From Anaerolineae bacterium (GTDB taxonomy: Bacteria > Chloroflexota > Anaerolineae > Aggregatilineales > Phototrophicaceae): a stretch of 64,000 bases of DNA. Below are positions 4,283-63,557 of this stretch, in pieces. The stretch's first letter is position 1. Every line of letters begins with the position of its first letter. Both the position numbers and the translations under genes were made by a program. The notes under the pieces are model-generated. The model was not told where the DNA came from. It did no database searches and saw nothing but the letters and a program-made list of their open reading frames with translations. The stretch lies in contig JALHNB010000004.1 of the NCBI GenBank assembly GCA_022843745.1, forward strand, positions 1 through 64,000, in the 5' to 3' direction.

Positions 4283-5281
4283 TTACTCTTTAATGGTCAG
4301 GCTGCTGAGAATCAGCAGGCTATCATCAATGATGTCTGATGGAATGTCATCATCGCCATCTACCGGATAAATTTTCCCATAGATGAATGAGCCATCTTCC
4401 AGATACATCGTCACGAAAACCACTGGATAGCTTTCGCCTTCAAAATTATCCGTAAAATCAACACGAACGATGTCTAAATCATTAAATGTTGTTTCTTCGG
4501 CAGCTACATCGTCAAACGTGATATCTTCATCTGCCGTGAAGAATACAGCTTCCGTCGCGCCAATCAGATCATCTGACGGTATATCCTGCTCTTCAAGGTC
4601 TTCTGGAAAATAAAAGTCGAAATTCAGGTTGTAGTTGCCGTTAAAAAAGTAAGCAAGGTTATCGTCATTGTGGTCAAAATCCCAAGCCTCTGGTATAGAG
4701 AATTCGTATCCCTTTATAGGTTCAACCGTTTTAAGGTCTGCTTCGATAGTGGACAAACTGCTGAGGATGAACAAGCTATCATCAATGATGTCTGATGGAA
4801 TGTCATCATCACCCTCTACCGGATAAATCTTTCCGTAGATAAATGACCCATCGTCCATATACATCGTCACAAAAACCACTGGATAATTTTGACCATCGAA
4901 AGTATCCGTAAAATCAATGCGAATAATATCCAGATCGTCAAAAGTCGTTTCTTCTACATCCACATCATCGAACGTGATGTCTTCATCCACTGTGTAGAAT
5001 ACAGCTTCCGTCGCCCCAATCAGATCATCGAACGGTATCTCCTGCTCTTCAAGGTCTTCTGGAAAATAAAAGTCGAAATCAAGGTTATGGTCGCCATTAA
5101 AGAAGTAGGCGAAATTCTCATCATTGTAATCATAATCCCAACCCTCCGGCATGGAAAATTCGTATCCATCCACCGGTTCGACAACCGTCAAATCTTCATC
5201 CTGCGCAAATACGGTTCCGATGCTCATCAAACTGAAAACTGTTATCAACAGGAAAAAAATTGACGACTTTGTTCTATACAT
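4283..5281 (-). CDS. Secreted acidic protein made of two near-identical 152-residue repeats
   Basis: A 332-residue exported protein of unknown function. Residues 1-26 are a signal peptide (cleavage after VFAQ). The rest is two tandem copies of one domain of about 150 residues, starting at VVEPVDGYEFSMPEGWDY and again at TVEPIKGYEFSIPEAWDF. The copies also match strongly in DNA (period 456 bp), so the duplication is recent. Both are extremely rich in Asp and Glu, with recurring aromatic motifs (AYFFNG, FDFYFPEDLEEQ, PVVFVTMY, GSFIYGKIYP). The fold looks like a beta sandwich similar to PsbP/Mog1-type or DUF1795-like proteins, but I cannot assign a family. TAGGAG supports the start. Composition is AT-richer than its neighbours. 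Confidence 0.75.
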   Translation of the reverse strand: MYRTKSSIFFLLITVFSLMSIGTVFAQDEDLTVVEPVDGYEFSMPEGWDYDYNDENFAYFFNGDHNLDFDFYFPEDLEEQEIPFDDLIGATEAVFYTVDEDITFDDVDVEETTFDDLDIIRIDFTDTFDGQNYPVVFVTMYMDDGSFIYGKIYPVEGDDDIPSDIIDDSLFILSSLSTIEADLKTVEPIKGYEFSIPEAWDFDHNDDNLAYFFNGNYNLNFDFYFPEDLEEQDIPSDDLIGATEAVFFTADEDITFDDVAAEETTFNDLDIVRVDFTDNFEGESYPVVFVTMYLEDGSFIYGKIYPVDGDDDIPSDIIDDSLLILSSLTIKE

Positions 5282-7934: not shown

Positions 7935-7998
7935 GGATAGCATCATCAAGTAAATACTTATCTTCGGGATAGCATCATCGAATCAATATTTATGATGA
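7935..7998. repeat. Two-copy tandem repeat, period 32 bp
   Basis: Two adjacent 32-base units, each beginning GGATAGCATCATC, at 7935 and 7967; the remainder differs at several sites. They sit directly upstream of the cupin start. This is one of several such short tandem repeats in this window. Confidence 0.7.
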
Positions 7999-13862: not shown

Positions 13863-13888
13863 TGATTGGTCTGTTACAATAGTCAATA

Positions 13889-13947
13889 TACCGTTGAAAG
13901 CTCCGGCTGACAGCAAAAAATACCGCTGAAAGCTCTGGCTGACAGCA
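13889..13947. repeat. Two-copy direct repeat, period 32 bp, in front of the BMC-H gene
   Basis: The 27-base unit starting TACCGYTGAAAGCTCYGG occurs at 13889 and 13921 with two mismatches, separated by five A residues. It lies between the membrane-protein stop and the AAGGAG of the BMC-H gene. It could be a regulator site, an RNA-processing site or a simple slippage duplication. Confidence 0.75.
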
Positions 13948-33053: not shown

Positions 33054-33148
33054 AGCTTACATTGTATGTGAATCGGCATTTTCCAACACGATATTAATAA
33101 ATATCTTGATTAATCTTAAGACCATCCTTTTAAACTAATACGTCTAAT

Positions 33149-33205
33149 AAATGTTGTATTGAATGATAAATCATGTATCGAACAACAAATGATGTGTCGA
33201 GGTAA
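33149..33205 (+). repeat. Three-copy tandem repeat, period 19 bp, carrying the ribosome site of the PHP gene
   Basis: Units at 33149, 33168 and 33187 share the pattern AAAT-nnn-GTnTnGA. In the third copy the variable end reads GAGGTAA, which provides the Shine-Dalgarno sequence for the GTG at 33209. Confidence 0.6.
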
Positions 33206-33208
33206 AAC

Positions 33209-33946
33209 GTGAGCGAAACCAATATCATGATGGGCAGAGCCGATCTCCACATGCACACAACAGCAAGCGATGGCGCGGCAACCGTGCAGGAGCTTTTGGA
33301 TTATGTGGCTAAAAAAGGGACACTGGATGTCATTGCCATTACCGATCATGACGTTCTCGACTCCAGTTTGTGGGCATACGAACGCCGCGAACAATACCCG
33401 TTCGAGATTATTCCTGGCCTTGAAGTCACCAGCGCGGAAGGCCATGTCCTGGGCTTGTGGGTCACGCGGCCTGTTCGAAGTGGGATGTCCCTGGCGGAAA
33501 CGGCGACAGCGATCCACGATCAGGGTGGTTTAGCGATTCTCGCGCATCCTTTTGAAATCCTTGTAAGCCCTGCCGCCGCATGGCGTTACCTCTGGCATCC
33601 AGAGGTGTTAATAAATGCGGAAATAGATGGATTGGAAGTTCACAATGCCGGAACACCCACACCGGGAAATAATTGGATGGCGCGGCGGGTGGCTCAAAAA
33701 CTCAAGCTGCCTATACTGGGCAACAGCGATGCCCACTCGCTTACCTCGATTGGCTGTGGCATTACCCGCTTCACAGGTCGCACGGCGGCTGACCTGCGCG
33801 ATGCCCTGGTACATGGCGAAACGATCGCTGAAGGCACATCATGGCCGATGATCGACTACTTGAGAATCTGCTCCGGTTCGACCCGGAGGATATTGTACGC
33901 ATTTTTGGCGACCAATACGCGCTCAATCCACCCGACCCGCTCATAG
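33209..33946 (+). CDS. PHP-domain phosphoesterase
   Basis: A 245-residue metal-dependent phosphoesterase (PHP superfamily, as in TrpH/YciV-type RNases or 3',5'-nucleotidases). Metal ligands appear in order: DLHMHTTASDG, ITDHD, Glu in PGLEV, LAHPFE, GNSDAHS. The GTG start at 33209 has GAGG 6 bases upstream; an ATG at 33227 is the alternative. The last 35 residues are encoded in the region that overlaps the next gene by 106 bases and do not look like normal family sequence, so either the overlap is real or the gene end is frameshifted. First of a PHP-GT4-MgsA operon. Confidence 0.8.
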   Translation: MSETNIMMGRADLHMHTTASDGAATVQELLDYVAKKGTLDVIAITDHDVLDSSLWAYERREQYPFEIIPGLEVTSAEGHVLGLWVTRPVRSGMSLAETATAIHDQGGLAILAHPFEILVSPAAAWRYLWHPEVLINAEIDGLEVHNAGTPTPGNNWMARRVAQKLKLPILGNSDAHSLTSIGCGITRFTGRTAADLRDALVHGETIAEGTSWPMIDYLRICSGSTRRILYAFLATNTRSIHPTRS

Positions 33947-35154
33947 AACTCGCGCCAGTCAAGCGGGTTGCGATTATCGCCGAGGCTTTTTTGCCAAAGG
34001 TCGATGGGGTCTCAAAAACTGCCTTTTTAACGTTACGCTATTTGCAGCAGACAGGGCGCGAAGTGCTGGTTTTTGCGCCGGATACCGCCCCCTCGGCGAT
34101 TGGCGACAGCCAGGTTATCGCGCTGCCGTCATTAGGGATGCGTTCTGCGCCAGAAACGCGGATCGCGCTGCCTTCGCTGTCTGTCTCCAGCTATCTGGAA
34201 GATTTTCAGCCAGACCTCATCCATATGTTCAGCCCGGCGCTGCTTTCCATGAGTGGGATGCTGGCAGGGCGACTGCGTAATATCCCGGTTATCGCCAATT
34301 ACCAGACCGATTTACCCGCCTACAGCCAACATTATGGCCTGAATATTTTTTCCAGCGCCGTCCGCGAATGGCTGCGCTATCTTCACAACGGCTGTCACCT
34401 GACTCTCGCGCCGTCGCAGTTCACGCTCAATCAGCTTCGCGCATCGGGCTATCATCGCTTACGCATATGGGGGCGGGGTGTTGATCTCAACGCATTCAAC
34501 CCGAAACACTGCACCGAAGAGTGGCGCGAACGCCTTCTCAATGGTCGTGACCCCGACTCACTCATCTGCATCTACGTCGGGCGGCTTGCCAACGAAAAAC
34601 GAGTCGATCTGCTGCTGGAAGTCGCGCGGACTCCCGGTATCGCCTTGACCATCATCGGCGATGGTGCGCTGCGGGGTGAACTGGAATCGCTTTTTGCCGG
34701 GACTGATACCTATTTTATGGGCTACCTGTTCGGAGAAGACCTTTCCCGCGCCTACGCCAGTGCCGATGTTTTCACATTTACTGGCCCCAGCGAAACGTTC
34801 GGTCAGGTGGTACAGGAAGCAATGGCCTCCGGGCTGCCAACCGTAGTTATCAATCAAGGCGCGGTGGGTGATCTGGTGATTGAGGGCGAAACTGGATACA
34901 CTTGCCCCGATGATCCCTTTGCCTTTGCTGAAGCCGTTAATATCCTGCGGGATAACGCCGCCCTGCGCGAACAAATGGCCTTTAAAGTACGTATGATTGC
35001 CCAGCAGCACCCCTGGGAAAAAATCATGCCCCAGCTTGAGGGTCATTACCGTGAAGCCATCGAGTTAAATCAGCGCTTTGCAGGCATTTATCGCCCTGAG
35101 CCGGGTCTGCATTTATCGTCATGGTTTCAGTGGGGGAACAAATATGAACGATGA
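33841..35154 (+). CDS. GT4-family glycosyltransferase
   Basis: A 437-residue retaining glycosyltransferase (GT-B fold). N-terminal domain begins VKRVAIIAEAFLPKVDGVSK at residue 41. Acceptor-side motif NYQTDLPAYSQHYG. Donor domain shows CIYVGRLANEKRVDLLLEVA and the EX7E-type segment GPSETFGQVVQEAMASGLP. This subclass includes SqdX/MgtA-like lipid glycosyltransferases such as sulfoquinovosyl- and mannosyl-transferases. Residues 1-40 are an unusual extension encoded within the end of the PHP gene. The stop TGA overlaps a mini-ORF (35144-35197) that leads to mgsA. Confidence 0.88.
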   Translation: MADDRLLENLLRFDPEDIVRIFGDQYALNPPDPLIELAPVKRVAIIAEAFLPKVDGVSKTAFLTLRYLQQTGREVLVFAPDTAPSAIGDSQVIALPSLGMRSAPETRIALPSLSVSSYLEDFQPDLIHMFSPALLSMSGMLAGRLRNIPVIANYQTDLPAYSQHYGLNIFSSAVREWLRYLHNGCHLTLAPSQFTLNQLRASGYHRLRIWGRGVDLNAFNPKHCTEEWRERLLNGRDPDSLICIYVGRLANEKRVDLLLEVARTPGIALTIIGDGALRGELESLFAGTDTYFMGYLFGEDLSRAYASADVFTFTGPSETFGQVVQEAMASGLPTVVINQGAVGDLVIEGETGYTCPDDPFAFAEAVNILRDNAALREQMAFKVRMIAQQHPWEKIMPQLEGHYREAIELNQRFAGIYRPEPGLHLSSWFQWGNKYER

Positions 35155-35202
35155 ACAAAATTGGGGCGCAAATATGAACGATAGACGGGGGAAATAAACA
35201 TG
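35131..35202 (+). repeat. Tandem ribosome-site/ATG modules, period 30 then 26 bp
   Basis: A run of G, a short A-rich spacer and ATG is repeated with ATGs at 35144, 35174 and 35200. The first two units share CAAATATGAACGAT exactly. The third unit is the mgsA start. The first ATG opens a 17-codon mini-ORF ending at 35197, three bases before the mgsA ATG, and overlaps the GT4 stop. Could be a translation-coupling device or a decayed duplication of the start region. Confidence 0.6.
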
Positions 35203-35580
35203 AGCGCTGAACGAAAAACGCTGGCATTGATCGCCCATGATGGCAAAAAGGCCGATATGGTAGCCTTCGCGCTGGCACATAAATCGGTGTTAGAGCGTTA
35301 CGAATTGGTGGCAACGCGCACAACGGGCGAAATTTTGCGCGATAAATGCGGCCTGAAAGTCGAGTTGATGCTCTCTGGCCCGCTGGGCGGCGATGCGCAG
35401 ATTGCCGCGCGGGTCGCCATACGTGATATCGAGGCCGTGTTTTTCTTCGTCGATCCGCTTGGCAAGCATCCGCATGATCCCGATATTCAAGGCCTGCTGC
35501 GTATCTGCAACGTCCATGACATCCCGCTGGCAACCAACGCCGCCACCGCCAGCTATATTATTTCAACTCGCGCCCTGTAA
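35200..35580 (+). CDS. mgsA: Methylglyoxal synthase
   Basis: A 126-residue enzyme that converts dihydroxyacetone phosphate to methylglyoxal and phosphate, a bypass of lower glycolysis under phosphate limitation. Family motifs: LALIAHDGKKADMV (with catalytic Asp nearby), TRTTGEIL, LMLSGPLGGDAQIAARVA, FFFVDPLGKHPHDPDI and NAATASYII. Length is normal. It is the last gene of the PHP-GT4 operon. Two VOC-fold genes in the window (1570, 21489) are glyoxalase relatives, but nothing links them to this gene directly. Confidence 0.95.
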   Translation: MSAERKTLALIAHDGKKADMVAFALAHKSVLERYELVATRTTGEILRDKCGLKVELMLSGPLGGDAQIAARVAIRDIEAVFFFVDPLGKHPHDPDIQGLLRICNVHDIPLATNAATASYIISTRAL

Positions 35581-37073: not shown

Positions 37074-38042
37074 TTACCCTTTGCGCTCGGCCTGACGCAC
37101 TGCGAGATTGAGGATCCAATCGGTAGCGGCGGCCTGAAGCATCGAGAAAACCAGAAGTGCCAGCCCGAAGAAAATGCCGTAGGGAATGGTCGCCCACATT
37201 TCGCCATAAAAACCGAGGTTGAGGAATGCCAGTCCCCAATCACCCAGCGCCGCAAACCCGCCAACCAGAAGCCACGCGCCCAGGCCACTCGCGTCCAGAC
37301 TGCCATCGACAAATTGAGTCGCCGCCAGCGCCAACGCCCCGACGATCAGGAGTCGCGCCAGCACGATCAGAATTTGCGCGATCACGGCATACGTCCGCTG
37401 TTGAAAAACTGCCGCGATCAGCAGCCCCAACGCCGCATCAAAACCGACTCCCGTCAGTGGCAGCAGCAACCCGGCAGTCATAAAAAAGGCCAATAATACC
37501 GCCGCGACAGGCAGTGAAACTTCTGGGGTAACTCCATTAATCAGCAAATCCAGATAGCGTCCCTGAAACGCGGTCAGATCAACCAGAATACCCGCAATCA
37601 AAATCACGCGCAGGCCGAGCAGGATCGCCAGAACAGGCCGCATTCGGTAAAAAACAGATGCCCATCGCGTTCGCAGGGTCAGTTCCGCCCCGGCTTCTGT
37701 CGCCCGCAGATTATCCCAGGTCTGGCGGCGCTTTTCTTCGCTGATAACGCCCCCGGTCAACAGAATCGTCGAGATCCGCATCCCCACCTGCACGACCAAA
37801 AGCGGCCAGAAAACAACCGCTAATACCTGCTCGGTCAGGTTTTGGCCCGCTGGCTGGCGCAGGAAATTGGTGGCGATCAGATAGCCGCCAGACGCCAAAC
37901 CCAGCGCCAACAAAATAATCCACAATGCGCGAAAATATTGAGCACGTTTGGATAAACGCGGCGCTCGGCTCAACTCATAGCGCAGAATAGGATGACTCCG
38001 ACTGGCCCAACCCGGTAACTGAACCGCGAGACGCTGTATCAT
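37074..38042 (-). CDS. Multi-pass membrane protein, ABC-2-permease-like impression
   Basis: A 322-residue integral membrane protein with about seven hydrophobic segments. A cytoplasmic loop (about 100-130: ISEEKRRQTWDNLRATEAGA) resembles the elbow/coupling region of ABC-2-type exporter permeases, where a Glu-x-Arg-x-x-x-Thr-Trp motif is common. No ATPase gene is near. It is the last gene of the AddAB operon, 56 bases from addA, in a spacer made of three 25-bp repeats. Function unknown. Bases 36931-37073 hold nothing else I recognise. Confidence 0.6.
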   Translation of the reverse strand: MIQRLAVQLPGWASRSHPILRYELSRAPRLSKRAQYFRALWIILLALGLASGGYLIATNFLRQPAGQNLTEQVLAVVFWPLLVVQVGMRISTILLTGGVISEEKRRQTWDNLRATEAGAELTLRTRWASVFYRMRPVLAILLGLRVILIAGILVDLTAFQGRYLDLLINGVTPEVSLPVAAVLLAFFMTAGLLLPLTGVGFDAALGLLIAAVFQQRTYAVIAQILIVLARLLIVGALALAATQFVDGSLDASGLGAWLLVGGFAALGDWGLAFLNLGFYGEMWATIPYGIFFGLALLVFSMLQAAATDWILNLAVRQAERKG

Positions 38043-38045
38043 GAG

Positions 38046-38120
38046 CTTTTACCCGACTAAACGACTAATGCTTTTATTCGACTAAACGACCAATGTTTTT
38101 ATTCGATTAAACTACCGATA
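38046..38120. repeat. Three-copy tandem repeat, period 25 bp, including the addA stop codon
   Basis: Copies at 38046, 38071 and 38096. The first pair match at 22 of 25 bases, the second pair at 20 of 25. On the minus strand the first unit encodes the last residues of AddA (I-G-S-L-I-E-stop), and the two downstream units keep the same reading pattern (I-G-R-L-V-E-stop, I-S-R-L-V-G). The gene end has been duplicated twice. Confidence 0.8.
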
Positions 38121-41100
38121 AACCCTTCGAGATTCTCCAGCGCAGACTCCCATTGCTTTGATTCAATGGGGATCGTTTGATTGTAGCGAATATAATGAAT
38201 ATACACTTGTAATTTATCTGCGTCCAATTTTAATAATTGAAGCTGTTTGATGACCGCTTCAGCATATGCTCCAACCTGAAGATGATAGCGCTGTGCGTGA
38301 TCTTCAACGGCTGCGCGATCCTTCGCACCATTGAGAACGTGGCTCGTCTTATAATCGACAATCACCCATGTGCCATCCGCACGCTGAATGAGCAGGTCGA
38401 TGACACCATGAATGATGCGTTTTTCGGTCTTATAAATAAATGGCAGTTCTCGATAAAATTTGCGCGATTCTTTTACCCATTTGTGAATCGGACTTCCTTG
38501 AAACCTGCCCAAAAGTTCATGCGCTTTTTGCACCGCCTGCCAATGTTCAACTGCATCAACGACACCTTGTTTCCAGGCATAACTTTCAAGCTGTTGTTCG
38601 AGATTTTCATTCTCGCCGAAAAAATCCCACCAGTGCAGCGCTTCGTGGACGATTTCGCCGATCACGCGCCCCATTTTGCTGCGTGTATGCTTCACGGAAT
38701 CAATGTGGGACGGCGCATCGTGCAGCAAATCGCGGCGAAAACGCTGGCGAAAATAGGGATTTTCCGGATTAAAGGCCGCGCCAATATCGCCCAAATTCGT
38801 CACCGAGAGATGCCGCGCGACGGCGGTGCGCTCGACCAGCACATCAGCCATTAACGGCGGCTGGATGGCTGCGCCCCCCGGCTGAACGCTGTCCCAGGCC
38901 GACTTTTCTTCGCGCTCCTCAAAATCTTCCGGCGGTGTCACCGAAATGTTCAGGCGTATTGATCCCCAATCGCGCAGAACAGGATTTTCGCCCGCTTGCT
39001 GAAGTTCCTGATGCAAATCGAGCGCTTCCAACATCCAGTTCAGCCAGTCGCCTGTTTTCCGTGTTCCATTTTTACTTTGCGAAATCTGACCGCTCACGAT
39101 CAAGGTATCCTGAGCGCGGGTGGCGGCGACGTAGAGCAGGCGCTTGCGTTCAGCGATTTCGCGCATCTCGCGGAGGCGAGTGGCTTGCCGATAATTAAAC
39201 GGGCTAACCTGTTTATCTTCTTCAGAATCATAGATTTTGCAGGCCAGGCCGCCACGCGGATCGTGGATGAGCAGGCCACCGTCACGACTGCCGCGCTCCC
39301 ATGACGCATCAACCAGCACGACAACAGGAAATTCCAGCCCCTTGCTGGCGTGGACAGTCATGAGAGTCACTGCGCCCTCGACCTCAACCAGCGCCTCGCC
39401 TTCGCGCACTTCACGCGCACTCAGATCGCTCAGATATTGCGAGAACGCGCCGAGCGTGACTTTGCCGCTGCTTTCGGCTTTGTCGAGTAGTTTTTCGATA
39501 TTCCCCCGGCGGCGTGCGCCATCGGTCAGCCCCGTAAGAGTCGCCAGATAACCGGTGTGCGCCAATGCTACGCGCAGCAGTTCGGAGATGGTCACACGCC
39601 CCGCCATCGCCCGCAAATGGTAGAGGCAGTCACGGGCAAAAATGACCAGATTTTGCTCATCAGGCGGAACTGCTTGAGCCACATCCAGCGCATCCCAGAG
39701 CGTCAAGCGTTCACCATCCAGGCCACGCACCAACCGCAGCGCCAGCAGCGCGTCATCGCTGAGTCCGAAAAGCGGTGAACGCAGCGCACTTGCCAGCGAT
39801 AAGTTATCAGCAGGATTGTAGAGCGCTCGTAATAAATTGAGCAAATCCCAGACTTCCTGACGGCTGTAATAACCCCGTCCGGCTACCGTCACGAACGGCA
39901 AACCCTGCGCTTTAAAAACATCCTCGTACACCGTGATATTGCTGGTCGATTGAAACAGCAGGGCGATGTCGTCATACTGCATGGGGCGAACGCCGTGAAC
40001 ACGATCAAAAACCGGCGTTTCCGACTCGACCATTGACCGCAAGCGAGTCGCGATTTCAAAGGCTTCCCATCGGCGGCTGGCCTCGGCTGAAATGCCATAT
40101 TTTTCATCCGGGTTTTTAGCGGCATCTTTATCCACAAGCCAGAATTCCAGCGCGGGATTATCGGCTGGCGGAGTCAGGCGATGAGCGTCCATCGCTTCGC
40201 CCAAGTCAATCTGATATTCGTAGACCGGGCTGGCGGGATCACGAGTCAGAATGCGCTCGAACAGGCTGTTAAAACAGCTTACAAGCGGCTGGTGCGCCCG
40301 GAACGAACGCGACAACATCACCTCGGAATCACCGCCCCAGATTTCCGTAAGCGTTCGCCGCACACCACCGAAAACGCTTACATCCGCGCCGCGAAAAGCA
40401 TAGATGCTCTGTTTTTGATCGCCGACCACGAACAAGCATCCCGGCACAGCGGGGTCAGCCAGCCCGCGCACAATCTCCCACTGCGCGCTATTGGTATCCT
40501 GAAACTCATCGACCAGCACATGCTTGAATTCCGTATTCTGATAGCGTCCGCGTACCGTTGCGTGATTGGTGAGTAAATCACACGTCACTCGCTCCAGATC
40601 ATTAAAATCGAGCGCTGCCTGCTCTTGTTTGGCTTCACGATAGGCAGCCTGAATGCGCTGGATAAGGCCGTACCAGAGGGGCAGCAAAAGCGCGGCTTTT
40701 TCTTCCACTGCGCCGGGGGGATCGCCTATTATTTCCAATAATTTTTTAGCCGACTCGCGAATTAGTTTGAGCGCCGCTTTCGACTCATCCAGAACATCTC
40801 TACCGCCCCAACTGGCCGAGCTGCCGACATTCACTTTGATACCGTCCGCCAACCCGCGCAGAGAATCCAGACATATCTGCACCGAAACATCGCCAGAGAA
40901 TAGCTCTATCCAGCGATGACAATCTTCCCAGATAAGCGTCAATTTATCGCCAGCAGGCCAGACCCCAGGAGGCCGCCACGTTGTCGATGCCAGAAAATCG
41001 GCGTTCTGTTTGAGGATGGTGATTTCGTGTGCGGCGCTCTGCTCCCATGCCGCCTGCCAATGCGCGAAAAGATCACCCGATATTTCGATTAATTCGCTTT

Positions 41101-41623
41101 CGACAAAATTTTTGAGGGCATCGCGCAAACTTTTGGTGTCATACTCGCCAAATAACTGTGCCGCTGGATGGCCTTCATCGACCACCGCCTGCAACTGATC
41201 GTCAATGACGCTTTCCAGCAGAATACTGGCATCCACATCGTCCAGCACGACAAAATCCGGGTCGAGTCCGGCTTCGGCAGCATTGGCACGTAGAATCGTC
41301 GCGCACAAGCCGTGAATTGTGTCGATACGAGCGCTGTCCATGCTGGCGATTCGGTCTGACCAGATGCGCTGTTCGTTGATACTTTGAGTCCGCGTAAGTC
41401 GATCTTCAAGCGCCTGTCGCACACGATCCCGCATTTCCTGCGCGGCTTTGCGCGTAAACGTGATCGCCACCAGCGCGTTTAACGACCATTCGGGATGTTG
41501 ATCGAGCAGCGAGAGATAACGCTCCACCAGCACGCGCGTCTTGCCCGATCCCGCCCCGGCGACGACGACTAGATTTTTATGATGTTGGTAGATGGCTCTG
41601 TGCTGCGCGGGGGTTAGATTCAT
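38099..41623 (-). CDS. addA: AddA: UvrD-family helicase/RecB-like nuclease subunit
   Basis: An 1174-residue subunit of the AddAB double-strand-break resection enzyme. Helicase motifs: Walker A AGAGSGKTRVLVERY, Ia ITFTRKAAQEM, II VDEFQDTN, III VVGDQKQSIYAFRGAD, V TVHASKGLEFPVVVL and VI YVAATRAQD. The C-terminal PD-(D/E)xK nuclease is seen at VIDLL..., then WVIVDYKTSH. The start is ATG at 41623. With AddB it would process broken ends for RecA loading. It is separated from addB by a methyltransferase gene, unusual because addB-addA are normally adjacent. Confidence 0.95.
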   Translation of the reverse strand: MNLTPAQHRAIYQHHKNLVVVAGAGSGKTRVLVERYLSLLDQHPEWSLNALVAITFTRKAAQEMRDRVRQALEDRLTRTQSINEQRIWSDRIASMDSARIDTIHGLCATILRANAAEAGLDPDFVVLDDVDASILLESVIDDQLQAVVDEGHPAAQLFGEYDTKSLRDALKNFVESELIEISGDLFAHWQAAWEQSAAHEITILKQNADFLASTTWRPPGVWPAGDKLTLIWEDCHRWIELFSGDVSVQICLDSLRGLADGIKVNVGSSASWGGRDVLDESKAALKLIRESAKKLLEIIGDPPGAVEEKAALLLPLWYGLIQRIQAAYREAKQEQAALDFNDLERVTCDLLTNHATVRGRYQNTEFKHVLVDEFQDTNSAQWEIVRGLADPAVPGCLFVVGDQKQSIYAFRGADVSVFGGVRRTLTEIWGGDSEVMLSRSFRAHQPLVSCFNSLFERILTRDPASPVYEYQIDLGEAMDAHRLTPPADNPALEFWLVDKDAAKNPDEKYGISAEASRRWEAFEIATRLRSMVESETPVFDRVHGVRPMQYDDIALLFQSTSNITVYEDVFKAQGLPFVTVAGRGYYSRQEVWDLLNLLRALYNPADNLSLASALRSPLFGLSDDALLALRLVRGLDGERLTLWDALDVAQAVPPDEQNLVIFARDCLYHLRAMAGRVTISELLRVALAHTGYLATLTGLTDGARRRGNIEKLLDKAESSGKVTLGAFSQYLSDLSAREVREGEALVEVEGAVTLMTVHASKGLEFPVVVLVDASWERGSRDGGLLIHDPRGGLACKIYDSEEDKQVSPFNYRQATRLREMREIAERKRLLYVAATRAQDTLIVSGQISQSKNGTRKTGDWLNWMLEALDLHQELQQAGENPVLRDWGSIRLNISVTPPEDFEEREEKSAWDSVQPGGAAIQPPLMADVLVERTAVARHLSVTNLGDIGAAFNPENPYFRQRFRRDLLHDAPSHIDSVKHTRSKMGRVIGEIVHEALHWWDFFGENENLEQQLESYAWKQGVVDAVEHWQAVQKAHELLGRFQGSPIHKWVKESRKFYRELPFIYKTEKRIIHGVIDLLIQRADGTWVIVDYKTSHVLNGAKDRAAVEDHAQRYHLQVGAYAEAVIKQLQLLKLDADKLQVYIHYIRYNQTIPIESKQWESALENLEGFIGSLIE

Positions 41624-47652: not shown

Positions 47653-48906
47653 ATGACCAGTAACCAGCAGCCCTCCAATCCCGAAGATGTCGGCGGCGTT
47701 CTAACGCGCGTGAATCGGCTCGGCACAGCCACCGAACGTTTGTTCAGCCGTTTATATACTTCGCTCAACCGTCGCTCCAAATTGCAGCAGGAGGAAATGG
47801 AAAAGGTCTACGCCGTCAGCCGCCGCAATAAACAGCTTGTTGAAGTTGTCAAAAAGCGTGAAGGCGAGATCGAACGGCTCAACGGTATCCTCGCCACCAT
47901 TGGCGAAGGCATTATCATGCAGGATAACGAGGGGCGCATTATCCTGGTCAATACGGCGGCGCGCAACCTGCTTGGCAGCCAGAAAGCCTTTTGGGAAAGC
48001 GAACTTGGCAGCCTCTTTGATGCCTACCGCGATGTCACAAAGCTCGATTCCGAACTGATGCCACTGGGCGAACCCACCCGCGTACAAATCAACAACCGCA
48101 TTTTAGGGGCGCAGATCGCCGCCGTCGCCAACAGCGAAGGTGAGCGCCTGGGTACGATGATCGTCCTGCGGGATGTGACACGCGACACGCTGTCAGATCG
48201 CCTCAAAGATCAATTTGTTACCGCCATCTCCCACGAACTGCGCACACCGATGGCAGCGATCAAGGGCATGAGTGAGGTAATCCTGGGGCAAAAAGAAGGC
48301 GCACCCATCAACCGCCGCTTTCTAGAAACCATAGGCCGCAACGTCGATATTCTGGATCGGATGATCGTCGAACTGCTCGACATCTCCGAGATGAGCGCCA
48401 ATGCCTTCAGCGTTCGCGAAGATTTAATCAGCGTCGAATCGCTGATCGAAGGTGTGATTCGGGGGGTTATGCCGGAAGTCACCCGCGCCGACCTTGATGT
48501 CTCATTTATGGCACGTGATACTGGACGTTTATATGTGAATGGCGACGACCAACGGCTGCGCTGGGCGATTATGCACCTGCTCCAGAACAGTATTCGTTAC
48601 ACACTTCCCAAAGGTCATATTCTGATTACGGCTCGCCTGGAGCAAGAGGAAAACATTGCCATCCAGGTTGTCGATACGGGAGTCGGCATTTCAGAAAAAG
48701 ACCTGCCCCATATTTTTGAGCGCTTCTACCGGGGCGAACCACGCACCAGCACTGGCAAATTACTCGACCCGCGCGGTCTGGGACAAGGGCTTTTCATTGC
48801 CCGCAAAGTCACTGAAGCCCATCGTGGTTATCTGAGCGTCCATAGCACACCCGGCAATGGCAGTATTTTTACGCTGGTGCTTCCAGCCACTTCTCCGCAA
48901 ACCTAA
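47653..48906 (+). CDS. Soluble PAS-domain sensor histidine kinase
   Basis: A 417-residue kinase with no membrane helix. N-terminal coiled coil (about 35-75), PAS domain (about 75-180: ILATIGEGIIMQDNEGRIIL), HisKA with intact phosphoacceptor AISHELRTPMAAIKGMSEV. HATPase has N box LRWAIMHLLQNSIRYTLP, G1 DTGVGISEKDLPHIF and G2 GLGQGLFIARKVTEAHRG. Very similar in its C-terminal half to the His-less kinase at 29704 (same FYRG, GQGL pattern). Likely partner of the receiver protein encoded just upstream. Confidence 0.92.
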   Translation: MTSNQQPSNPEDVGGVLTRVNRLGTATERLFSRLYTSLNRRSKLQQEEMEKVYAVSRRNKQLVEVVKKREGEIERLNGILATIGEGIIMQDNEGRIILVNTAARNLLGSQKAFWESELGSLFDAYRDVTKLDSELMPLGEPTRVQINNRILGAQIAAVANSEGERLGTMIVLRDVTRDTLSDRLKDQFVTAISHELRTPMAAIKGMSEVILGQKEGAPINRRFLETIGRNVDILDRMIVELLDISEMSANAFSVREDLISVESLIEGVIRGVMPEVTRADLDVSFMARDTGRLYVNGDDQRLRWAIMHLLQNSIRYTLPKGHILITARLEQEENIAIQVVDTGVGISEKDLPHIFERFYRGEPRTSTGKLLDPRGLGQGLFIARKVTEAHRGYLSVHSTPGNGSIFTLVLPATSPQT

Positions 48907-48945
48907 TTTGCGTCTCTAATACAAACACAATTTGCATCTCTCTAG
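48898..48945. repeat. Two-copy tandem repeat, period 24 bp, spanning the kinase stop codon
   Basis: Units at 48898 and 48922 both begin CAAAC, then share AATTTGCRTCTCT; the first contains the TAA stop of the PAS kinase. About 17 of 24 bases are identical. Confidence 0.55.
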
Positions 48946-50659: not shown

Positions 50660-50669
50660 ACAACTTACG

Positions 50670-50723
50670 ATTAAATAGATGACCTGTATTGAATAAATGA
50701 TCTGGATTAAATAGACGACCTGA
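50670..50723. repeat. Three-copy tandem repeat, period 18 bp, after the branching-enzyme gene
   Basis: Units at 50670, 50688 and 50706 follow the pattern ATTRAATARAYGAYCTGN. They begin 10 bases after the GH57 stop. The spacer to glgA is otherwise AT-rich without features. Confidence 0.75.
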
Positions 50724-58908: not shown

Positions 58909-58948
58909 ATGCAAAAGCGTGCCTAGTTATGCAAAAGCGTGCCTATAG
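58909..58948. repeat. Two-copy tandem repeat, period 20 bp
   Basis: ATGCAAAAGCGTGCCTA occurs perfectly twice, at 58909 and 58929, in the spacer between two convergent genes. Confidence 0.8.
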
Positions 58949-61429: not shown

Positions 61430-61539
61430 TTAAGCCGACGGTGGGGCAAAATCGCCGGAAAATCAGGGCATTCCACAGACCGCATTAAGCCGACGGCGGG
61501 ACAAGATCGCCGGAGAGCCAGGGCATCCCATAGCCGACA
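61430..61539. repeat. Two-copy tandem repeat, period 55 bp, duplicating the end of the next gene
   Basis: Units at 61430-61484 and 61485-61539 both start TTAAGCCGACGG and stay about 80 percent identical. The second unit is the real C-terminal coding end of the minus-strand gene below (reading GMPWLSGDLVPPSA-stop). The first unit is a degenerated copy of it directly downstream, now with an in-frame stop at the Trp position. Confidence 0.85.
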
Positions 61540-62096: not shown

Positions 62097-63557
62097 ATGA
62101 AAACAAAATCATCTATCAGGTCTTCTACAACAAAAATCGCACCCTTCATATTTTTGCTGGCTTTGTATATTTCGCCAGTTTTAGCGGCAGCGTTCGATTG
62201 CCCGGAAATCGCGCAAACGGCTTTGCAGAGGACGGATACGCTTTGCGCGGATACAGGCCGCAATAGTGCCTGTTATGGCCACGATCTCCTCGAAGCCCAG
62301 CCACAGCCTAATGTCGATATGTTCACGTTTAATCAACCCGGCCAAAAAGTTGACGTTGCCCAGATTCGCTCCTTACGCCTCTCGCCCATGAACATCACCG
62401 ATCAGGTGTGGGGCGTGGCGCTGATGCGCTTACAGGCCAGTTTACCCGCATCGCAGCCCGAAGACGTAACCATGCTCATTTTTGGCTCTGTAGAGGTCGA
62501 AAATGCCGTTATGCCCGCGACCAGCCAAACAATGACCGTCACAGCCCCTCAAAATATCAACGTTCGCAGCGATCCGTCTCCGACTTCAGCCGTGATCGGG
62601 ACATTGCCGTCCGGCGCGACGGTGACAGCGCTCGAACGCCTGCCGGATAATTCCTGGCTGCGCGTTCAGATGCCCAACGATGCCAATGTGACGGGTTGGG
62701 TATCCGCGTCGCTGTTGTCTGGTGACGTAGAAACACTCAATATCGCCCAGGCCAACGCCCCCTATTTACAATCGATGCAGTCCTTCTATTTTAAGAGCAG
62801 TGATGACGCAGCAGCCTGCCAGGATATTCCCACCAGCGGCCTTTTGATCCAGACACCCGAAGGCGCAGGCAAAGTCCGACTGTGGATCAACGAAGTCAAA
62901 TTCCAGATCGGCTCGACAGTTTTCCTGGAAGCGCAGCCCGGTGGTGAAATGACCATCCAGACGCTGGAAGGTGAAGCACTGGTCGAGACAGGCGGTGTGA
63001 CTCAGCGGGTTATGGCTGGCACACAGGCGCAAATCCAGATGAGTGAAAATTTGCAGCCGCTTTCATCGCCCAGTTTCCCTGAGCCTTATACGATGGATGC
63101 CGTACAAACGCTGCCCGTCGATCACTTAACCGATCAGATTACGATTGAGCCGCCGCTGACTCGTGAAGAAATTCAGGAGAGCATCGCCCAGGAAAATTCA
63201 ACAACTGACACCACCACTGACGATAGCAATAGCACGCCCCCTGCGAATGACACATCGGGTTCTGACGATAATTGCCCCGGCAATAGCTGCAATGCTCCTG
63301 GTCGTAATGATAATTGCCCCGGCAACAGTTGCAACGCGCCAGGTCGTAATGATGATTGCCCCGGCAATAGCTGCAATGCTCCTGGTCATGACGACAGTGA
63401 TAACGGCAATGGAAACGGAAACGGTAATGGCGGTGGTCAGGATAATGGCAATGGAAATGGTGGCGGCGACCAGGGTGATAACGACGACCAGAACGAAGAC
63501 GAGGGCGGCCTGTTAGATTGGCTTGGCGATATTTTGGACAAATTGCCCGTCTTGTAA
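62097..63557 (+). CDS. Secreted SH3b-domain protein with Cys repeats and Asn/Gly-rich tail
   Basis: A 486-residue exported protein. Signal peptide 1-31. N-terminal domain (about 33-145, CxxxxxxA...CYGHDLLEAQPQ, WGVALMRLQASLP) is common to Chloroflexota surface proteins. Bacterial SH3 domain at about 155-210 (NINVRSDPSPTSAVIGTLPS, WVSASLLSG). A FecR-like beta part follows (about 255-345: TIQTLEGEALVETGG). Then come three tandem copies of a 14-residue unit (DNCPGNSCNAPGRN, residues about 390-432) and an Asn/Gly/Asp-rich tail. Probably wall- or surface-bound. Stand-alone gene. Confidence 0.75.
   Translation: MKTKSSIRSSTTKIAPFIFLLALYISPVLAAAFDCPEIAQTALQRTDTLCADTGRNSACYGHDLLEAQPQPNVDMFTFNQPGQKVDVAQIRSLRLSPMNITDQVWGVALMRLQASLPASQPEDVTMLIFGSVEVENAVMPATSQTMTVTAPQNINVRSDPSPTSAVIGTLPSGATVTALERLPDNSWLRVQMPNDANVTGWVSASLLSGDVETLNIAQANAPYLQSMQSFYFKSSDDAAACQDIPTSGLLIQTPEGAGKVRLWINEVKFQIGSTVFLEAQPGGEMTIQTLEGEALVETGGVTQRVMAGTQAQIQMSENLQPLSSPSFPEPYTMDAVQTLPVDHLTDQITIEPPLTREEIQESIAQENSTTDTTTDDSNSTPPANDTSGSDDNCPGNSCNAPGRNDNCPGNSCNAPGRNDDCPGNSCNAPGHDDSDNGNGNGNGNGGGQDNGNGNGGGDQGDNDDQNEDEGGLLDWLGDILDKLPVL

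Follow-up and report, generated by a model that had tools for sequence, protein, structure and literature searches.

Why should the end of a gene, stop codon included, be found three times in a row ahead of the next gene of its operon? That is the situation on the minus strand of the window (the 64 kb of contig C4 analysed here), where the array at 38045-38119, a 25-bp unit present 2.9 times with 87% similarity, stretches from the final 21 nt of an addA-like gene, stop included, to 2 bp short of the gene that follows. Tandem Repeats Finder (TRF) delimits it as 38045-38116 (period 25, 2.9 copies, 87% matches, score 102), and both this result and the minus-strand reading agree with an earlier note on the same DNA, which had claimed a three-copy gene-end repeat at addA. 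The features concerned are:

38099..41623, minus strand: addA-like helicase-nuclease gene, 1174 aa (open reading frame; matches addA_Gpos with E=1e-126, short of the curated cut-off; has family orthologues)
38095..38119, minus strand: copy 1, the native addA end (ATC GGT AGT TTA ATC GAA TAA) plus 4 nt of spacer
38070..38094, minus strand: copy 2, extra, GRLVE*, stop at 38074-38076
38045..38069, minus strand: copy 3, extra, SRLVG*, stop at 38049-38051, the unit finishing 2 bp short of the start codon that follows
37074..38042, minus strand: next operon gene, 322 aa, ATG at 38040-38042 (open reading frame)

Structure of the addA junction

Read on the minus strand, copy 1 is GGTAGTTTAATCGAATAA followed by AAACATT and encodes GSLIE*, copy 2 is GGTCGTTTAGTCGAATAA followed by AAGCATT and encodes GRLVE*, and copy 3 is AGTCGTTTAGTCGGGTAA followed by AAGC and encodes SRLVG*; TC and the ATG start codon of the downstream gene come next. 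The three readable ends that had been pointed out are thus confirmed by translation, and a readable peptide is what is to be expected when one copy stays coding. Describing the unit as the last 25 bases of addA was right as to inclusion of the stop (38099-38101), but only 18-21 nt of it are addA, the remainder being 4-7 nt of spacer. Since 25 is 1 modulo 3, the stop of each copy falls in another frame. All differences among the copies are non-synonymous, and a genome-wide search finds the unit at this one locus. For the 322-aa gene downstream there is no match in Pfam or NCBIfam.

The gap between addA and that gene is 56 nt (38043-38098), or ~6 nt plus two 25-bp units. In the closest relatives G023, G047 and G041 it is 0 to ~6 nt, with the next gene 3 nt past the addA stop in G023; in G047, G041 and others the two genes overlap or lie a few nt apart. 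Nearest within the family are G023, G008 and G026, whose AddA is 60-63% identical, and the named AddA relatives are Anaerolineae and Aggregatilineales MAGs. Two further junctions of the window can be compared similarly. Between a glycosyltransferase gene and an MGS-domain gene there are 45 nt here versus ~7 (G008), ~10 (G026) and ~19 nt (G023), and what is repeated there is the downstream gene's Shine-Dalgarno/ATG region; the spacer upstream of a glycogen/starch-synthase gene is long here and short in G023, with its array explaining just part of the length. The addA junction is a concrete case of operon junctions lengthening by duplication of a gene end, stop included, with the gene unharmed. 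In G002, of a distant genus (L036), the orthologous addA end has an independent 10-11 bp array of ~4 copies in which the stop is repeated (CGCTATTAG).

Repeats in the window and across the genome

Eight other sites had been listed with the addA one, and their features are as follows:

7935..7993, no strand assigned: array, period 32, 1.8 copies, in a divergent spacer
13888..13947, no strand assigned: array of 1.9 copies with period 32, upstream of a BMC-shell gene
33147..33200, no strand assigned: weak, gapped array before an open reading frame at 33209
35133..35200, plus strand: imperfect ~30 bp copies of the MGS-domain gene's Shine-Dalgarno/ATG region (gene at 35200-35580), with the stop of the glycosyltransferase gene inside the first copy
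48898..48941, plus strand: weak array, period 24-25, at a histidine-kinase gene end
50669..50722, plus strand: 18-bp unit, three times, in the spacer upstream of the glycogen/starch-synthase gene
58909..58945, no strand assigned: array, period 20, 1.9 copies
61430..61530, no strand assigned: array of 1.8 copies with period 55 that overlaps the end of a called gene

At all nine sites, chosen beforehand, the best self-offset score exceeded that of all 300 local shuffles, and most of the periods given for the eight were right; four of them (33149, 35131, 48898 and 50670), however, are weak or gapped and lie under the genome-wide cut-off. At that cut-off the 64-kb window holds 6 arrays, all but one within spacers, with 0 in five third-order shuffles.

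How representative is the window? The source genome (Chloroflexota, 7.96 Mb in 117 contigs, 98.6% complete, the one genome of its genus in the set compared) was sampled by an ungapped self-similarity scan at offsets of 12-70, later 12-120, with genes called by our own simple hexamer caller. In 1.264 Mb at the stricter cut-off, 137 kb of spacer yielded 60 arrays (0.44/kb) and shuffled spacers 0; coding DNA yielded 18 in 1.13 Mb (0.016/kb), and five family relatives together 5 in 123 kb of spacer. With the sample enlarged to 1.664 Mb and the cut-off loosened, there were 82 arrays in 175 kb of spacer versus 0 in shuffles, and scaling these 82 from 1.66 Mb to 7.96 Mb gives an estimated ~400 genome-wide. 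The suggestion of a spacer repeat density above random is therefore upheld: rather than being no higher than in random sequence, the density is far above it and about ten times that of relatives. Within coding regions the array periods are mostly multiples of 3, and periods divisible by 3 are the usual pattern of protein repeats.

Two preferred steps

Once dispersed and low-complexity cases were removed, 67 arrays remained, of which 21 have periods of 19-25 bp, 0 of 26-27, 2 of 28-29, 40 of 30-35 and 4 above. The distribution is bimodal, at 19-25 and at 30-35 with a peak at 31-33, and the 30-35 class is specific to this genome. Exact 9-mers recur at a distance of 32-34 at 7.5 per 100k here versus 0.6 in controls, and the 31-33 peak of the 9-mer spectrum is absent from the controls; peaks near 8-10, 14-16 and 20-22 bp are common to this genome and relatives. 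Spacers of G008, G041, G027 and G047 and of Anaerolineae loci (L002-L014, L065-L084, L129-L142) have the 8-10, 14-16 and 20-22 bp peaks and not one at 31-33 bp.

Could the genome nevertheless be unremarkable, its repeats being ordinary minisatellite-like ones at the level of most bacteria? In many prokaryotes the intergenic regions have an excess of close direct repeats (PMC4060949), and the shorter peaks shared with relatives are what such a view would lead one to anticipate. It is set against the ~10-fold excess over five family relatives, a 31-33 bp peak missing from controls and a scan of 50 kb of E. coli K-12 that found no arrays, and is the least probable of the explanations considered here.

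Nor do the units point to a common sequence. Nearly all lack a second locus in the 1.66 Mb sample, and among the arrays no common motif stands clearly over the null (the best gapped trinucleotide pair scores 5.0 versus a null maximum of 4.6). Only three arrays clearly match a dispersed family and a few others show a weak match or one close by; a dispersed repeat, REP or MITE family was rejected bar these few, the addA unit being single-copy. Dispersed short REP-like elements, often as inverted pairs, are present at many sites, as at G000 C1:30884, C1:150316 and C2:142092 (L090, L095, L115).

Placement relative to genes

Arrays occur at 0.49/kb in divergent spacers, 0.39/kb in same-direction spacers and 0.15/kb in convergent ones, the last being array-poor (3/66, P about 0.03). 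Of the 36 arrays in same-direction spacers, 21 reach or overlap the upstream stop versus 11.3 expected (P=0.0002), and only 3 overlap the downstream start versus the same expectation of 11.3 (P=0.0004), with the reservation that gene starts rest on our own caller and stops are more certain. The whole stop codon of the upstream gene is contained in 19 arrays. A preference for gene ends, as had been proposed, is thus evident in same-direction spacers but not in convergent ones, and since the latter have gene ends only and are array-poor, it is not gene ends in themselves that are targeted.

Arrays are often 10-45 bp upstream of a start codon. It may be asked whether they are selected regulatory direct repeats, i.e. 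pairs of protein-binding sites that precede a gene and are held by selection two or three helical turns (~21 or ~32 bp) apart. The clustering of periods at 19-25 and 30-35, the position before starts, and divergent and same-direction spacers being richer than convergent ones are all consistent with this. Yet the units share no motif, are nearly all unique and do not resemble operators; the 19 arrays holding an entire upstream stop are awkward for it; and the 21-bp peak is found in relatives also, though that at 32 bp is not. Helical phasing was itself tried and dropped, given that 21-bp peak in relatives and a phase test that failed to separate 10.5 from 10-12 bp. We regard selected binding sites as unlikely.

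Age and coding state of the extra copies

Copies within arrays differ by ~9% within the scored core and by more at the edges. Divergence of that order in the core argues that most arrays are old, and the active process that the earlier note had envisaged is not borne out. An RNA role, also raised there, fares no better: a search of the window with Rfam gave nothing except one tRNA, and the arrays have no motif in common.

Are the extra copies constrained as protein? In stop-overlapping arrays, copies 1 and 2 differ 19, 16 and 45 times at the three codon positions, and 45 of the 80 differences are synonymous, where 30% would be predicted if both copies were neutral and ~43%, assuming an omega of 0.15, if one were coding and the other neutral. 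Between copies 2 and 3 and later, both non-coding, 11 of 27 differences are synonymous versus a neutral expectation of 9.2. Protein-level constraint on the extra copies was rejected because the third-position excess is seen between copies 1 and 2 and not between 2 and 3; it arises mostly because one copy stays coding. Judged from these comparisons, the gene-proximal copy appears constrained and the extra copies look neutral and drifting, with a modest synonymous excess left over, 45/80 being somewhat above the 43% of the one-coding, one-neutral model.

Some arrays differ synonymously only (VVCSIMARVPRR*, PMKDTPA*, PSIETLSH* and SEAARYILDV* among the stop-overlapping pairs). These, and the 45/80 overall, are what might be looked for had a diverged allele been recombined in, with the join leaving the old allele's end as a second copy. 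Such gene-replacement scars would leave unaccounted for the arrays away from genes, those with three or four copies, and the fixed periods; heterogeneity between arrays is marginal (P=0.03) and the addA copies have non-synonymous differences exclusively, all of which makes this origin very improbable. Four gene-end copies in succession, GIKPHLDE*, GIQPHLDV*, GIKPHLDK* and NIKPHLDE*, are found at L050:1974-2058 and adjoining sequence (G000:C7), with a period of 31, each having its own stop and neighbours being out of frame.

How the duplications may have arisen

The reading that we favour, and hold to be rather probable, is that the arrays are old products of recurrent short tandem duplication, kept where both flanking genes survive and drifting thereafter. 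Strand slippage or template re-pairing was probably the cause, and a copying error favouring ~21- and ~32-base steps probably what left the duplications. In replication or repair the growing strand would re-pair one unit back, and a stretch of ~19-35 bp would be copied twice. A duplication wholly within a gene would usually break it; one reaching from inside the gene past its stop would leave the native end intact and displace the extra copy into the spacer, and with the native end spared, selection would let spacer and gene-end duplications persist. At addA, a duplication across the tight operon junction (the addA end with its stop and the handful of bases that separate it from the next start) would have been amplified to ~3 copies, the gene-proximal one remaining coding and the extra ones drifting, and the array would be one of an estimated 400 unrelated duplications genome-wide.

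Not everything fits recurrent slippage comfortably. Plain slippage would not be expected to give so sharp a peak at 31-33 bp and hardly any periods of 26-28, and convergent spacers, as the least constrained, should not be array-poor (3/66). Neither the PolA flap-nuclease domain nor MutS has been lost: genes with a PolA 5'-exonuclease domain and a MutS domain are present, as in relatives, and so the obvious repair losses fail to explain the array excess.

A measured step, and duplications without a common sequence, could be had if breaks staggered by ~21 or ~32 bp, or pairs of nicks that far apart, were filled in and joined, in which case the step would be determined by the enzyme that cuts. 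The trimmed edges of the copies at first resembled the short filler that such joining might leave, with 1-9 unmatched nt between perfect pairs. On inspection of flanks and simulation, filler was dropped in favour of mostly edge trimming; simulated divergence with small indels largely reproduces the trimmed edges and filler is therefore unnecessary, though perfect pairs are still more trimmed than simulated ones (0.89 versus <=0.74). Ku-dependent end joining was rejected, Ku being found in 0 of 61 family genomes, this one included, with detection in the B. subtilis positive control. Break fill-in we consider distinctly improbable. Also unlikely is a process of the lineage that would duplicate spacer DNA in ~21 and ~32 bp steps, about two or three turns of the helix, with a protein or replication intermediate and not the sequence fixing the step, and reshape operon junctions throughout the genome.

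Relation to known repeats

Bacterial intergenic minisatellites, the VNTR loci of MLVA typing, have units of tens of bp in spacers and few copies, and those of MIRU type sometimes span a stop codon. The present arrays are likewise tandem, with units of tens of bp in spacers and few copies, and as head-to-tail units of 10-60 bp with similarity beyond chance they count as intergenic tandem duplications or minisatellites; their units differ in being almost all locus-unique, mostly in ~2-3 copies, with periods of 19-25 and 30-35 bp.

Borg elements (PMC9879509) have pervasive, independently arisen tandem direct repeats that can begin in the ends of open reading frames. Borg units are A-rich and recent and are also found within open reading frames, in contrast to the diverged copies and nearly array-free coding regions here. 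Base composition of the units is that of spacers, and A enrichment of Borg type is absent (A 0.290 in units versus 0.289 in spacers). In Beggiatoaceae, hundreds of intergenic direct-repeat sets of the heptamer TAACTGA occur in one genome, many just before starts (PMC4679880); there one heptamer is common to all, here there is no common sequence and the periods are longer. A survey of close direct repeats (cd10g50) across prokaryotes reports no preferred spacing in the section consulted (PMC4060949), unlike the specific 31-33 bp excess of this genome. Within the parts consulted of PMC4060949, PMC4679880 and PMC9879509, the yield of a limited open-access literature search, locus-unique duplications with two preferred steps are not reported.

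The addA array is an ordinary kind of event, and the interest lies in a density particular to this lineage and in the preference for 31-33 bp. Should the 31-33 bp step prove real and mutational, what causes it can be put to the test; a selected step would instead indicate paired sites of a class so far overlooked. As a simple statistic, the period spectrum could show which lineages have a strong short-duplication bias and whether the step is physically set.

Repeats of other sorts are also present in the window: a 456-bp tandem duplication (1.9 copies, 83%) at 4302-5167, within an open reading frame without a Pfam match, and in-frame 42-bp repeats at 63267-63387 in an SH3-domain protein.
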